Below are positions 1-60,900 of a DNA stretch of 64,000 bases, one piece after another. The stretch lies in contig JAKCPI010005101.1 in the NCBI GenBank assembly GCA_023213315.1, positions 32,247-96,246 on the forward strand, in the 5' to 3' direction. Within the stretch, counting starts at the first letter, position 1; every line of letters starts with the position of its first letter. The DNA is from Euborellia annulipes (Eukaryota; Arthropoda; Insecta; Dermaptera; Anisolabididae). Both the position numbers and the translations under genes were made by a program. The notes below the pieces were generated by a model that did no database searches, was not told the DNA's origin, and saw only the letters and a program-made list of their open reading frames with translations.

Positions 1-3000
1 TCTCCTTCGGCTTTTGGCATTCAAAGGCGCTGCTTTCGTACATGCTCTTTTACAAATTATTAATCTCAAAATGTCTACTTTATAAATAAAATTAAATCCG
101 GTCCATTATCCAGGCTACTACCTAGGCCTAGCGATATTTAAAGGATTAAGGGAAGAAAACTTTTCAAAAAGATAATAGAGAGAGATAGATAGATGATCAT
201 ACTTAGTGTTTGAATTTTTTTCGTTTCTACATCAACAAAAATGTCATCTTCTACATTAAATGTTTCTGAAGCATCCTCGAATTCTTCATCATCACTTTCT
301 AAAATGTCAACAACTACCTGAAAAAAAAAGAAATATTGAATTTAAAAAAAAATTCACTCTTAAAACGGGAATCAAGTTTCATTCCCAAAAAAGCGCCTCT
401 CTAGGGTTATCAGAGTCCCTCCGAAATACAAATCGCTGTTGATTAAATCTTTTTCAAGCCAAACATTCTACATATATGAAGGCGGAACGGGAGCGAAGGT
501 GTTACGCATGTTTTTCCCGATTGTGTGTCATAAAAAGTAAGCCCAAAAATTCAAGTAATTCGAAAATTTGCCAAGAGATGTCAGAATGGTAGCTAATAAT
601 ATTTAATGCATTTGGTTGATTTATATTGATTGATCTTTTAACAATAAATACTTTATAAATGTTATTATATATTATGTATCTTTTATAAAAGCATAAAAAT
701 ATATAAATATAGGCTAATACTATGGGGGATCGGCTGTTAGACTAGCCTGCCATCTATTGCAGGAATGCTGAACTAATTTGACAGTTGATTTTTTTAAATA
801 AATCATGTAAGCTTATTTTAATATGTGATTAATAATAACAATAAATTCATTTTTAAATTTAAAAAAAATTAAAGATTATTGGCACAGATTGTTTTTTTTT
901 TGTATTTGCTTGATAACAAAAAAATTAATTTCCTCAATTTTTTAATAAGTCATTAAAAGAATTATAGCTCGATGTCCCAATAATCTCTTATGAATTTAAT
1001 TCATTTAAAAAAAAAACCGCATTGAAAAATTCCTTATAATAGTCTAGTTTTTTTTAAAGTACGTTTAGACGTCGCTCCTGAACCCCATTAACGATACGTT
1101 AATTCAAGAAACATTTAATGGGCATTTCTAAATCAATTTAACACAAAACCATATCATTTTAATAAATAATTACAATTTAAATAAAACCAAGACAAAAATG
1201 AGGAAATTTTTTTATTAACGCCACATTTCTAATTTATTGTTATTATTAATCACATATTAATTAAGAAATTTTTAAAATAAGCTTAGATGATTTATTTAAA
1301 AATCAACTGCCAAATTAGTTCAGCATTCTTGCAATAGATGGCAGGCTAGTCTAACAGCCGATATAGTATTATTAGCTTATATTTATATATTTTTATGCTT
1401 TTATAAAAGATACATAATATATAATAACATTTATAAAGTATTTATTGTTAAAAGATCAATGAAAATCAAAAATATTATTAGCTATCATTCTGACATCTCT
1501 TTGCAAATTTTTGAATTACTTGATTTTTTGGGCATACTTTTTATGACACACTACGCCATCTTAGCGGGAAAAACATGCGTAACACCTTCGCTCCTGTTCC
1601 GCCTTTAGATAGATTAGAACAGGTCTTCTTAAGAAGAAACAAAATGTTACGTTATTTTTTTGACGCGCAGTGTAGTTAGTTCTTAATATATAAACACCAA
1701 TAATTTATAAAATCGCGAGAAAGTGTAATGTGATATAAATGCTGACTGACAATTATTTTCTTAACGTAAACGTGACTGATGAGGCCATTATCCTCGGTTG
1801 GAGCGTTTAACTGGACAGATGATGGCATTATTTAAATAACGACTTCGCCTTCTCCTGGCTCTATTCCCCTTTGGTAGATTGTCGATTTATTCAATTTACT
1901 TACTTTCTTTTCTTTCGAGTTATTTTCTGCTTTGACAGTAAGGCGGTGAACGGGATGTGACAATCCTGCATTTGCAAGACAAATTTTATCACTTTTTAAA
2001 CTTTTAGGCCAACCAGTCCAACTCTAAAGAAAAATAAATAAATAAATAATTAGTCTGAATTTATTTAGTAAAAATCAAATTTCCATACCTGGTGCCTAAC
2101 AGGAATATTTGTTAAAGAATAAACATCATTTTTAATCTCCAAAATGGTCTTCGATCCATGAAATTTTAGATCGTAGTTTTTATTATCATATTGTATTTTC
2201 AAATTGTAAATTTGTTGTAACCTCTCAGCTTGACTAGGTCTGAAAGAAACAAAATAATGAAAGAATGTATCATCGATAAATACGATTGGAGTTTATTGAA
2301 TATGGACCCTGTTATGCATTAGTGTGTCAAGCGCCAAAAAAAAAAAAAAATAAAAAATTGAGTTAAGCACGGAATATTGTTTCAAATGCTATAATTAATA
2401 GTATTTTTTATGAAATATGTCCTAAAAAAATTTATATTTAATGTTACTTGCACAATTGACAAAAAAAATTATATATAATCTAATCAAAACAAAAAACTTT
2501 AATGTTGATTTTCTCAAATCTCGGTAGCTGGCGCTTGACACACTAATGCGTAACAGGGTCCATATACCGGTATCAGCGTTGAATTTATTTTCATGATTTA
2601 TTATTTGGATTTTACTCTTATAAAACTTGAAATTTAGAGCCACCCCCCCCACACAAATTGTTAATCTCATCTAATTTCTGATATGTACCCCCAATTTGAT
2701 AACACTCATTAGAGTTGTTTGAGAGTATCCCAAGATAAAAACGCACATAAGCAAAGTTAAAGAACCCCCCACCCCTGGAACATTCAAATTGAAGAGGTGA
2801 TGAACGACAATTGAAATTGCTGGAGGTATTTTCAGGCCAAATTTTATTCCACTATTCAGTCGACGTTTCGGGGGACTTAACGCCTCCCTTCATCAGGACT
2901 CTAGTCATGTACAAAGGCAAACATACAGCTTAATTTACATTACAATGATTCTCACTCACTCTCACTTGTCTTTTTTTTTTTTTTTTTTTTTTTTTTTTGT

Positions 3001-57900: not shown

Positions 57901-60900
57901 GGGAACACAAAATCAACAAGTTGGCTAGAAATTAGAGAGCGTCCTTTATGCTCTGAGAACCAGCTTCCTACCTGACTATGGGTTGGGGGGTGGGGGCTAC
58001 GCAGCAGTTGAAAAACGAAGAGAGGAAGCAGGTGACTGACCCTTTAAACAGTCATAAACAGACCCTTTTGTGTTGATCCCAATCGGTACCCTCGCCTCGC
58101 TTGAATATAAGATCCTTCCTTAACATCTTAACACTTGCATTGCAACAAGAAATATCCCAAATTGGGAACAAACCGGCTCGCCGAAGGCGAGCAAGGGTCC
58201 AGGGGCGTGCCCCCGGCTAGTGGAAAGCCCGCCGAAGGCGGGCTTGCGACTAGTATTTTATAAATACAATTTCTTTTTTCTTATGACAATAAACATATTT
58301 ATTAATTTATTATCAATAAGCGAAAAAGGTACAGCTGGGAGTCGCACCACGGATCTGTCGATTTGTACTCGATCCGTGGTTTTTACATGTTATTTGGGAG
58401 GTACTCTAAGATATTTATCCTAAGTTTTCGACTTCGAGGACCCTGTGCTGGCTTGGAAGGGGAGTGGGGTGCAAAAACCTCAAAAAACTTTAAATTTTTT
58501 TTTCCGTTCTTTTTCTTATATTTCGTCATGTGATCATATTTTGTCTACTATAGTCCTATGCAAAGTTAAATTTGCTAAGATTTGGTACATAAAACAAATT
58601 TGCAGACCCTATATTATTTTGGGACATCGAGCTATAATTTTTTTTAATGACTTATTAAAAAATTATCTTAATTAATTTCTTTGTTATCAAGCAAATACAA
58701 AAAAACAATCTGTCCCAATAATCTTTAATTTTTTTTAAATTTAAAAATGAATTTATTGTTATTATTAATCACATATTAATTAAGAAATTTTTAAAATAAG
58801 CTTAGATGATTTATTTAAAAATCAAATGTCAAATTAGTTCAGCATTCTTCCAATAGATGGCAGGCTAAACTAACAGCTGATCCTCTAATGGCCTATTTGT
58901 ATATTTTTACGCTTTTATAAAAGATACATAATATATAATAACATTTATAAAGTATTTATTGTTAAAAGATCAATGGAAATCAACCAAATGCATTAAATAT
59001 TATTAGCTACCATTCTGACATCTCTTGGCAAATTTTTGAATTACTTGATATTTTGGGCATACTTTTTATGACACACAACGCCATCTTATCGGCAAAAACA
59101 TGCGTAACACCTTCGCTCCTATTCCGCCTTAAGTAAAATTGACCGTCAAAAATCGATTTTTTTCTAAATACTTAATCGATTCGTGTTTGAATCGAAAATC
59201 GACGCTCAAAATCGATTTTCAATTAAAATCGAAATCGAATCAACCAACCCTAATCAATTCACATTCTATTCTATTCTAATTTTGAATTAAATATTTTGAG
59301 AAGAGGAAGATCATTGAACGCAAGTCGTTGAACAATGAAAGTTAACAATAAAAAAAAAACATTTATTGTTGTTTGCTTTATTTTCAGACTGGCGACTGGC
59401 TAGCAACAATTTCGGTAGAACCAACTACCATCTTCAGGCCTGCAAAATACATTTTTATTTATATATAAGTTTATTTATCGATATATAAGTAAATTAAATA
59501 AAAATGTATTTTTCAGGCCTGAAGATGGTAGTTGGTTCTACCGAAACTGTTGCTAGCCAGTCGCCAGTCTGAAAATGGTTTCACGATTTGAAATAAATCT
59601 TCCTCCTCTCAAAAATATTAATAATTGCGCCAATCAATTAAAAAGTTTGAATTAAATTTTATTTATTTTTTTACTTAAATGGCATCCAGGGGTTTTTTTT
59701 TTCATTTAAACTAGCTCTATGATCACTTGACTTGATTTGTTGCATGGGATGATGGGATGCTGAGGGTTCCTAATAAATATTGCTAAATTTGCCTCCCGGA
59801 TCTTCAAAAAAACTTTGTCCATTGCTCAAACTTTTTTTTTTAGCATGTTTTTAATATGAGCCGTTTATTTTAAAAGCGGGGCAAGTCAATTGTTTATTAA
59901 TGCTCCGGGATATTTGCATTTTAATAAGGCCAAGGTCCCACCGGTTAAGGGGGATGGATCTGGTTCGTAGTATTTCTCTTCAAAATTACTATAAAGACAC
60001 TTCCGCGCTCTCTGTTTAACTCGTCACCCTCTCCTGCCCTATTCAATGTCCTGGCGTTGTCGAACATCCAGCAAGCTTGGGAATAGCCTTTCCAGAAATG
60101 CACTAGTTACGCCAGTTTTCGTCGAGCCGCCCTTGCCCGCCGCCTCAATCGTGTGTCAAATTAGCCTTCTTGGCGATGCTCATTATTATGACATTTTTTT
60201 TGTAATTACTTTATTTTTTTCTATATAAGATAACTCGGGGGAAGACGCCACACTTGAGGATTTTTCGATTAGTACGTTGAAAATAGAAATAATATTTAAA
60301 AACCTTAAATAATATAAAGTTGAACTCATCACGTTAAATTCTCACGAGATCCAAAAAAAAAAAACGCCAGAATTCATATAAATTCACAAGTCACACCGAA
60401 CTCTTCAAACAAGTGGCTCACTGTTTCCATAAAAGTACTATCGACAAACTTGCGTCTTCCCCAGAGTTACCTCATACCTTTTTTTTTCTCAAAAACTTGT
60501 ATAGAGGTCGAAAGCATATTTTAAAAATAAATAAATTAAGGGATGAAAGAAAGCAAGTTCGGGTGCAGCAAATAAAGATGCCAAATACCGAAAGGCATAC
60601 TTGCTTTTATTTAGATATTTAAATTTAATTCAATAACTACGCATAATAAATGTGAGCTTATTTTTGTTATTGTTTTGATTCAGCCAGATAAGAAGAATTC
60701 GGACGTGAATTGTTGTAAAGCCAAAAGAATTGTTGTTACCTCTTATTTCCAATAAGCATAATGACCATGTTCGAGTTGGAATGTTGCCGGGCATCCTCGA
60801 GCCAGGCTGTCAGGTGGTTGAAAGTCTCTCGCCTGGTGATATCATAGACAAGCAGAGCTCCAGCTGCGCCTCGATAATATGAACGTGTTATCGACCGAAA

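Follow-up and report, generated by a model that had tools for sequence, protein, structure and literature searches.

We analyzed a 64,000-nt window of the genome of Euborellia annulipes (Dermaptera; GenBank assembly GCA_023213315.1, contig JAKCPI010005101.1, positions 32,247 to 96,246), which is occupied by short insertions made of two inverted arms, each arm carrying a hammerhead-ribozyme-like motif (Table 1). A first-pass annotation of the letters alone had described about 34 such motifs, mostly in 14 main inverted pairs, with a core of the form CTGANGA. That count was reproduced by a covariance model trained on 17 aligned motifs, one per family, which found 35 matches at E<0.01, i.e., 28 in 14 inverted pairs and 7 singles. 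Eighteen of the 35 lay outside the training set: 11 partner arms of training motifs, 6 in three pairs that the training set did not include (21879/21994, 32320/32837, and 52760/52971) and one single (28620). The plain pattern CTGANGA-N6..30-GAAAC occurs 23 times vs. 0.52 expected, with a maximum of 3 in 100 shuffles. All 14 pairs are oriented head to head, with the left motif on the minus strand and the right motif on the plus strand. The family reported at 2859..59552 is thus real, and its elements extend somewhat further, from about 2798 to 59645. The CTGANGA form holds for most motifs; the core of 32320/32837 (the ninth pair of the annotation, identified by its stems) is CCGAAGA, that of 21879/21994 is more decayed, and that of 52760/52971 is degenerate in a pair without duplication.

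The flanks of these elements are those of insertions. Perfect target-site duplications of 11–14 bp bracket 8 of the 14 pairs; one of these duplications reaches 18 bp if one mismatch is allowed. A duplication score of at least 11 was reached by these 8 of 14 true pairs vs. 9 of 182 mismatched left/right combinations. Elements 2 and 7, for which the search range was widened to accommodate a nested palindromic insertion (about 3787–4001) and a long arm, respectively, have duplications of 12–13 bp with one mismatch. In the ten elements with a duplication, a tail of 18–45 nt occurs on one arm only (by eye in 4027/4211 and in 59437/59519, where an indel lengthens the left arm and the tail was set on the right), and 7 of the 10 tails contain CAGCC or CAGCT. 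Measured from core base A9, the tailed end lies at 108–131 nt in eight of the ten elements and at 223 and about 361 nt in the other two. Arm identity is mostly 92–99%, the lowest value being about 70% (25012–25331). The center of element 11 (43307–43385) is a near-perfect palindrome of about 70–80 nt, such as a self-primed junction might leave.

Table 1. Motif-bearing elements, unpaired motifs and features of the split motif in the window (positions are those of the 64,000-nt stretch; TSD, target-site duplication).
Feature	Position	Strand	Motifs	Remarks
Element 1, double-armed	2798..3178		2896(-)/3048(+)	TSD AAATTGAAGAGG at 2786-2797 and 3179-3190; right-arm tail 32 nt
Element 2, double-armed	3660..4299		4027(-)/4211(+)	TSD 13 bp, 1 mismatch; left-arm tail (length by eye)
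Element 3, ~95% palindromic	21756..22072		degenerate, near 21879(-)/21994(+)	TSD TATTATTTAAAGAG, 14 bp; left-arm tail; family outside training
Element 4, double-armed	22997..23722		23097(-)/23597(+)	TSD ATATGAATAAA, 11 bp; right-arm tail 25 nt
Exon-1 part of stem I 5′ strand (TTTATTGGG)	23462..23470	+		continued by CC at 23595-23596
Intron, spliceosomal type (GTATGT...TTTTTAG), 124 nt	23471..23594	+		retained in element 4; precisely missing from spliced genomic copies
Hammerhead-like core, CTGAAGA to GTC	23597..23628	+		predicted cleavage after 23628, from hammerhead scheme
Stem I 3′ strand (GGCCCAATAAA)	23629..23639	+		contains AATAAA polyadenylation signal
Element 5, double-armed, diverged arms	25012..25331		25058(-)/25282(+)	without convincing TSD
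Element 6, double-armed	25338..26070		25446(-)/25933(+)	TSD TAAAAAAGGATTT; right-arm tail 29 nt
Element 7, double-armed, longest	29703..30966		29907(-)/30737(+)	TSD 12 bp, 1 mismatch; right-arm tail 25 nt
Element 8, split by element 9	31996..33048		32057(-)/32987(+)	no TSD found
Element 9, inside element 8	32229..32951		32320(-)/32837(+)	CCGAAGA core; TSD AATTAATTATTTTT; right-arm tail 23 nt; family outside training
Element 10	33621..34424		33720(-)/34295(+)	TSD ATTTCCAGATTAT; right-arm tail 30 nt
Element 11, ~95% palindromic	43128..43583		43228(-)/43465(+)	TSD CAAAATCACTTTAA; right-arm tail 18 nt
Element 12	47888..48611		47927(-)/48572(+)	without convincing TSD
Element 13	52720..53011		degenerate, 52760(-)/52971(+)	no TSD; outside training
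Element 14	59293..59645		59437(-)/59519(+)	TSD TTTGAATTAAAT; right-arm tail about 26 nt by eye
Single motif, doubtful	3891..3915	+		at center of a different palindrome; was in training set
Single motif	14743..14774	-		no inverted partner by model
Single motif	17045..17076	+		no inverted partner by model
Single motif	18062..18091	+		stem I contiguous over 9 bp
Single motif	26738..26766	-		model match
Single weak motif	28620..28648	+		E 0.006; stem II register +2
Single motif	37390..37418	-		core similar to element 6 core by eye

The motif shows the covariation expected of a structured RNA. Stem II was said to vary in sequence while preserving its pairing, and this was confirmed: 90.4% of its cells are paired, and its covariation score is 0.734 vs. 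0.237 after shuffling (0/500) and 0.06–0.23 when the stem is slid. Stem I alone is 69.1% paired (0.590 vs. 0.209 shuffled, 0/500). Stem III is usually just ACGT, which is too short and varies too little to show covariation, and the core CTGANGA/GAAA is conserved over the 17 families despite their differing stems. Stem II of type I hammerheads begins directly after A9 (pair 10.1–11.1 in the standard numbering). In the window, a single unpaired base separates CTGANGA from stem II in all 17 aligned families (pair 14–35: 0/17 paired). A stem of at least 3 bp forms in 25 motifs with this one-base offset, in none with the canonical register and in 3 with the next, and we rejected the canonical register because the covariation signal is lost there (score 0.138). 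The assignment to minimal type I hammerheads therefore stands as regards the core and the covarying stems I and II, but the motif departs from the standard type I fold by the extra base before stem II. Scanning the window with Rfam at gathering and relaxed thresholds gave no hammerhead match, the stronger relaxed-threshold matches being hairpins scored as microRNA, and Rfam was likewise blank for hammerhead-like motifs in 13 of 16 viral loci, so that its silence on the window carries little weight. Near the motif, a polyadenylation signal is found in 13 of 18 families vs. a background of 29%, and a 3′-splice-site-like sequence in 9 of 18 vs. 7%, both by criteria chosen after viewing the sequences.

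As a separate observation, hammerhead-like motifs also occur on viral contigs (L002, L003, L006, L007, L008, L010, L012, L013, L015, and L016), with stems I and III that appear strong by eye. Several are followed shortly by a ribosome-site-like sequence and an ATG. Some share the extra T before stem II, which the search pattern required, and some nearby motifs do not; none was reported by Rfam at the gathering score.

Element 4 belongs to a family whose copies resolve the ends more finely. At least 40 near-full-length matches to its right arm (126 nt), with 98–100% identity, were obtained in the genome from the best 40 of 1,933 candidates scored, a ranking that favors tailed arms and from which tail frequency cannot be read. 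We sampled 32 loci, namely the 20 first fetched (one being the window itself) and 12 of the other 20, and found an opposite arm in 22. Untailed arms end at 97–106 (15 of 22 at 100–102) and tailed arms at about 126, and 8 of the 22 opposite arms start late (seven at 15–67, one at 2), as 5′-truncated cDNAs would. Duplications of 8–15 bp were found around 17 of the 22 double-armed copies and around 4 of the 10 single-armed ones, although those of 8–9 bp may include chance matches and a looser criterion was used for single-armed copies. The two end points and the late starts of the second arms fit two separate starts of reverse transcription.

The short end and the tail are also linked by a covarying hairpin. 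Across 15 families (10 from the window and 5 from elsewhere in the genome), a tail pairs better with its own arm than with a swapped one (permutation p 0.0008; 0.006 with a narrower search window, and 0.038 for ten families alone). The best-pairing 5′ partner of the tail sits 9–51 nt ahead of the short end. No tail stem was seen in family 59437/59519, and the best stem in 29907/30737 varies with the chosen window.

Another feature of the element-4 family is an intron that splits stem I of the motif. In the window, the exon ends in ACATTTATTGGG and is followed by GTATGT; after 124 nt, TTTTTAG leads directly into CCCTGAAGATGG, which opens the motif. Among the tailed arms of the 32 loci, 20 are spliced (TTGGG joined to CCCTGAAG, without the intron), 5 carry the intron end and 7 are truncated, shifted, or different. 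Removal is exact and follows the GT-AG rule. The spliced RNA is predicted to fold into stem I (TTTATTGGGCC with GGCCCAATAAA, 11 bp) plus stem II at -21.7 kcal/mol (z -3.7), and the predicted fold of the unspliced RNA lacks stem I (-10.5 kcal/mol, z -1.0). These junctions show that spliced sense RNA was copied at least once; the number of times cannot be read from them, because a spliced copy can itself give rise to further spliced copies. When hidden first exons that could complete stem I were sought for 19 motifs, two stood out from 760 shuffles. One is 23597, which reaches 11 bp (equalled in 10 of 760), and the other is 25058 (17 bp), which we rejected since its match is the element's own opposite arm. 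Only the element-4 family is upheld as a case of split stem I, because its genomic copies show the junction, and the intron in the hammerhead stem is accordingly supported for one family only.

One reading of this arrangement is that the spliceosome assembles the ribozyme: the intron would split stem I, only the spliced sense RNA would fold, and the stem would bury AATAAA, coupling splicing, 3′-end formation, and self-cleavage. We put this forward as tentative and, on balance, doubtful. If true, it would add a new way of turning a ribozyme on, through an intron in one of its stems. The titles, abstract openings, and passages that made up our literature survey contain no intron inside the hammerhead stem of a Penelope-like element (PLE); this is not proof of novelty, as earlier work on PLE introns (2003) and on PLE hammerheads (2014 and 2017) lies outside the survey.

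The first-pass annotation proposed that the motifs are terminal-repeat remnants or non-autonomous relatives of Penelope-like retroelements, and suggested searching the genome for the same motif on either side of a PLE reverse transcriptase. That search, over 903 Mb in 25,949 contigs, was positive. The GIY-YIG endonuclease domain (PF01541) gave at least 118 matches at E≤0.001 (best 150 of 710 candidates scored), and a hand count over 30 fetched loci gave 16 with a motif (E≤0.05) downstream of GIY-YIG and on its strand; eight of these 16 score identically and are apparently copies of one family. Both RVT_1 and GIY-YIG pass in two of four open frames scanned (L048 and L051), the other two having RVT_1 only (E 0.01), with L055 under the curated cut-off. 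In L048, motifs at 5557 and 8508 bracket an open reading frame (ORF) at 5776–8241; in L051, motifs at 1217 and 4149 bracket a frame running from its first Met at 1276 to 3822. Hammerhead-bearing repeats thus surround frames that join reverse transcriptase and GIY-YIG, as in PLEs. In four families checked, the first in-frame Met is 3′ of the hammerhead and not within it.

Genomic relatives resemble the window elements in their ends. Duplications were found in 7 of 12 motif pairs tested from fetched genome regions. The PLE-bearing loci L053, L049, and L052 have duplications of 12, 15, and 12 bp with ends at 97 and 130, 95 and 129, and 99 and 131 nt, respectively. Duplications of 12 bp likewise accompany short pairs at L047 (ends 95/124), L059 (two mirror copies, 90/134–135), and L051 (75/114). 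Among the 12 pairs, no duplication was found for L058, L048 (cut by the contig end), or L050, and the top-scoring repeat of the L047 outer pair and of L054 was internal AT sequence. Inverted pseudo-long terminal repeats (pseudo-LTRs) with a tail on one arm and a duplication are thus common to ten window elements, L053, L049, L052, and 17 of the 22 double-armed family copies, and their ends cluster at two internal points that may be reverse-transcription start sites. The window elements are tied to full PLEs by this end geometry and the common motif.

Taken together, the window elements are very probably non-autonomous or 5′-truncated insertions of many PLE families, copied as pseudo-LTRs by two-sided priming, with splicing joining the ribozyme halves in one family. 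What the data show is how the elements are built, with their duplications and tails, the covariation of the stems, copies with and without the intron, and PLE frames bearing the same motif. The enzymatic steps given below are inferred, as are cleavage by the ribozyme and any role of splicing or polyadenylation in control. A PLE protein with reverse transcriptase and GIY-YIG domains would bind the 3′ part of the sense RNA and cut the two target strands about 8–15 bp apart. Reverse transcription would start inside the 3′ hairpin on one side, giving the short end, and just past the hairpin on the other, giving the tailed end; joining of the two cDNAs at their 5′ ends would yield two head-to-head arms, only one of them tailed, flanked by a target-site duplication. 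In many families the hammerhead-like motif lies just 3′ of a 3′-splice-site-like sequence, with a polyadenylation signal overlapping it or immediately downstream; in one family, stem I has its 5′ strand in the upstream exon, so that splicing would join the two ribozyme halves.

Several observations weigh against this scheme. A scan of 20 of the 33 window ORFs of at least 110 aa revealed no PLE protein, no family was found both as a window mini-element and as a full PLE, and a convincing duplication was not found in 4 of the 14 pairs. The motif was not found in the expected place in 14 of the 30 GIY-YIG loci, and L029, L039, L040, L045, and L046 have motifs in other positions. In the element-4 family, the opposite arm is intact in 14 elements: both arms are spliced in 11 of these, and in the other 3 the opposite arm matches neither the spliced nor the unspliced state, which gives no direct demonstration of two different RNAs per element. 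Nearly all junctions of this family have a C-A mismatch in stem II, the left arm of the window copy being intact. A second spliced/unspliced case, 18062 vs. 25058/25282, was dropped as the alignment lacks a clean intron difference. In addition, the available text of the published work on PAc reports no difference between the strands in the start of reverse transcription (PMC11167929), while the two arms differ here.

The strongest alternative concerns the motif and not the insertions. It may be a structural signal only, for protein binding or as a stop for reverse transcriptase, having lost cleavage through the extra base and the near-absent stem III. Both the extra base in all 17 aligned families and the stem II mismatch of the element-4 family speak for such a loss, as do available passages of the PAc report in which the RNA is uncleaved without protein and hammerhead mutants leave insertion unaffected (PMC11167929). 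The core, however, is kept over 17 families with different stems, and the same passages describe a PAc hammerhead that cleaves with its protein and requires C3 and G8 (PMC11167929). We regard loss of cleavage as a serious contender that falls short of an even chance. The earlier suggestion that the motifs act as dimers fails within one transcript of an inverted pair, because such an RNA contains one motif in sense and its partner in antisense orientation; the transcript of element 1, the sole element folded, is predicted to form one long hairpin (-245 kcal/mol, z -37). A dimer would require two RNAs or a tandem PLE.

A second alternative retains retro-insertion but derives the inverted arms from self-priming (snap-back) of one cDNA or of an antisense template, as the available text on rotifer Penelope elements suggests (PMC3846280). 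The roughly 95% palindromic elements at 21756–22072 and 43128–43583 are what it would produce, and it sits well with the 11 of 14 copies spliced in both arms, no copy that combines a spliced with an unspliced arm having been observed. Snap-back should, however, repeat the tail in the second arm, where it is missing in ten window elements (two by eye) and 22 family copies; second arms have 5′ truncations of their own, and spliced copies need sense RNA. We consider snap-back unlikely. Two-sided priming on sense RNA fits better: the tail is absent from the second arm, which has truncation points of its own, and the RNA was spliced. Finally, it is highly improbable that the elements are miniature inverted-repeat (MITE-like) DNA transposons whose motif is a transposase-binding palindrome: numerous short copies with inverted arms and target-site duplications would suit them, but the termini are asymmetric with one tail, the duplications vary from 8 to 15 bp, second arms are variably 5′-truncated, some single-armed copies (L060, L068, L071, and L072) have duplications, spliced copies and PLE proteins with the same kind of ends exist, and two nested covarying stems in hammerhead arrangement require RNA.

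The window is rich in inverted repeats of other kinds. Two very large palindromes (54537–56113 and 61824–63210; about 1.6 and 1.4 kb, 92–95% symmetric) contain no hammerhead match by the model, and foldback elements at 473–1611, 18641–19103, 46436–47545, and 53617–53933 have neither a model match nor a clear PLE-type duplication. The reverse transcriptase at 43847–45079 was rejected as a PLE; it is of LINE type (RVT_1 only), with named relatives from insects among the 120 listed. Repeated pieces of an ankyrin-repeat gene (38451–38819, 41095–41520, 45280–46059, and 49588–50438) apparently form a local gene family, and the leader TPLPxSQETPKTEIKEE, present in some of them, recurs in frame ahead of the LINE reverse transcriptase. 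A fragment at 16138–16548 matches the helix-turn-helix domain of Mos1-type mariner transposases (HTH_48, E 3e-18).

The literature available to us does not settle whether the RNA copied by PLEs is sense or antisense, by what route their inverted repeats originate, or what role the hammerhead plays. The element-4 family, in which 40 or more nearly identical copies combine two fixed ends, 5′-truncated second arms, and spliced and unspliced versions, makes these questions directly testable. For PAc of Anolis, the available passages describe cutting and extension of both target strands, reverse transcription that starts internally, two start sites with a tail between them and a hammerhead aided by the protein, the start sites lying 111–118 nt into the PAc ORF (PMC11167929); we equate the PAc ORF start with core base A9 of the window elements by inference. 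For Penelope insertions of the rotifer Adineta, they describe inverted pseudo-LTRs, duplications of 8–10 bp (up to 15 bp here) and a tail that is optional, and they suggest self-priming on an antisense template (PMC3846280). As far as these descriptions go, the window elements and their relatives share with Penelope/Poseidon PLEs a hammerhead in the pseudo-LTR (PAc), a frame with reverse transcriptase and GIY-YIG, head-to-head pseudo-LTRs, an optional tail on one side, a short duplication and an internal reverse-transcription start about 110–130 nt into the element end. They differ in that the window elements lack an ORF and are far shorter, in that one family has an intron in stem I, and in that the first in-frame Met is downstream of the hammerhead rather than inside it (four families). 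The two end points with the late starts of second arms, the hairpin over short end and tail, and the intron in stem I exceed the descriptions available.

Other hammerhead-bearing elements are less close. The near-absent stem III is also found in known minimal hammerheads (Lunse et al. 2017), as described in PMC7761336 and PMC6155905; in the motifs of the window, the extra base before stem II is constant. Metazoan retrozymes, as described in the accessible text, are likewise non-autonomous, carry type I hammerheads and are possibly mobilized by PLEs (PMC7229834). They are tandem direct repeats with canonical hammerheads, in contrast to the inverted pairs with a minimal offset motif found here, and identity with retrozymes was rejected as all 14 window pairs are inverted. 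Terminons, in the portion of their description available, are PLE-related retroelements with hammerhead motifs too, but they are giant and telomere-attached, whereas the copies described here are short and interspersed (PMC6431247).

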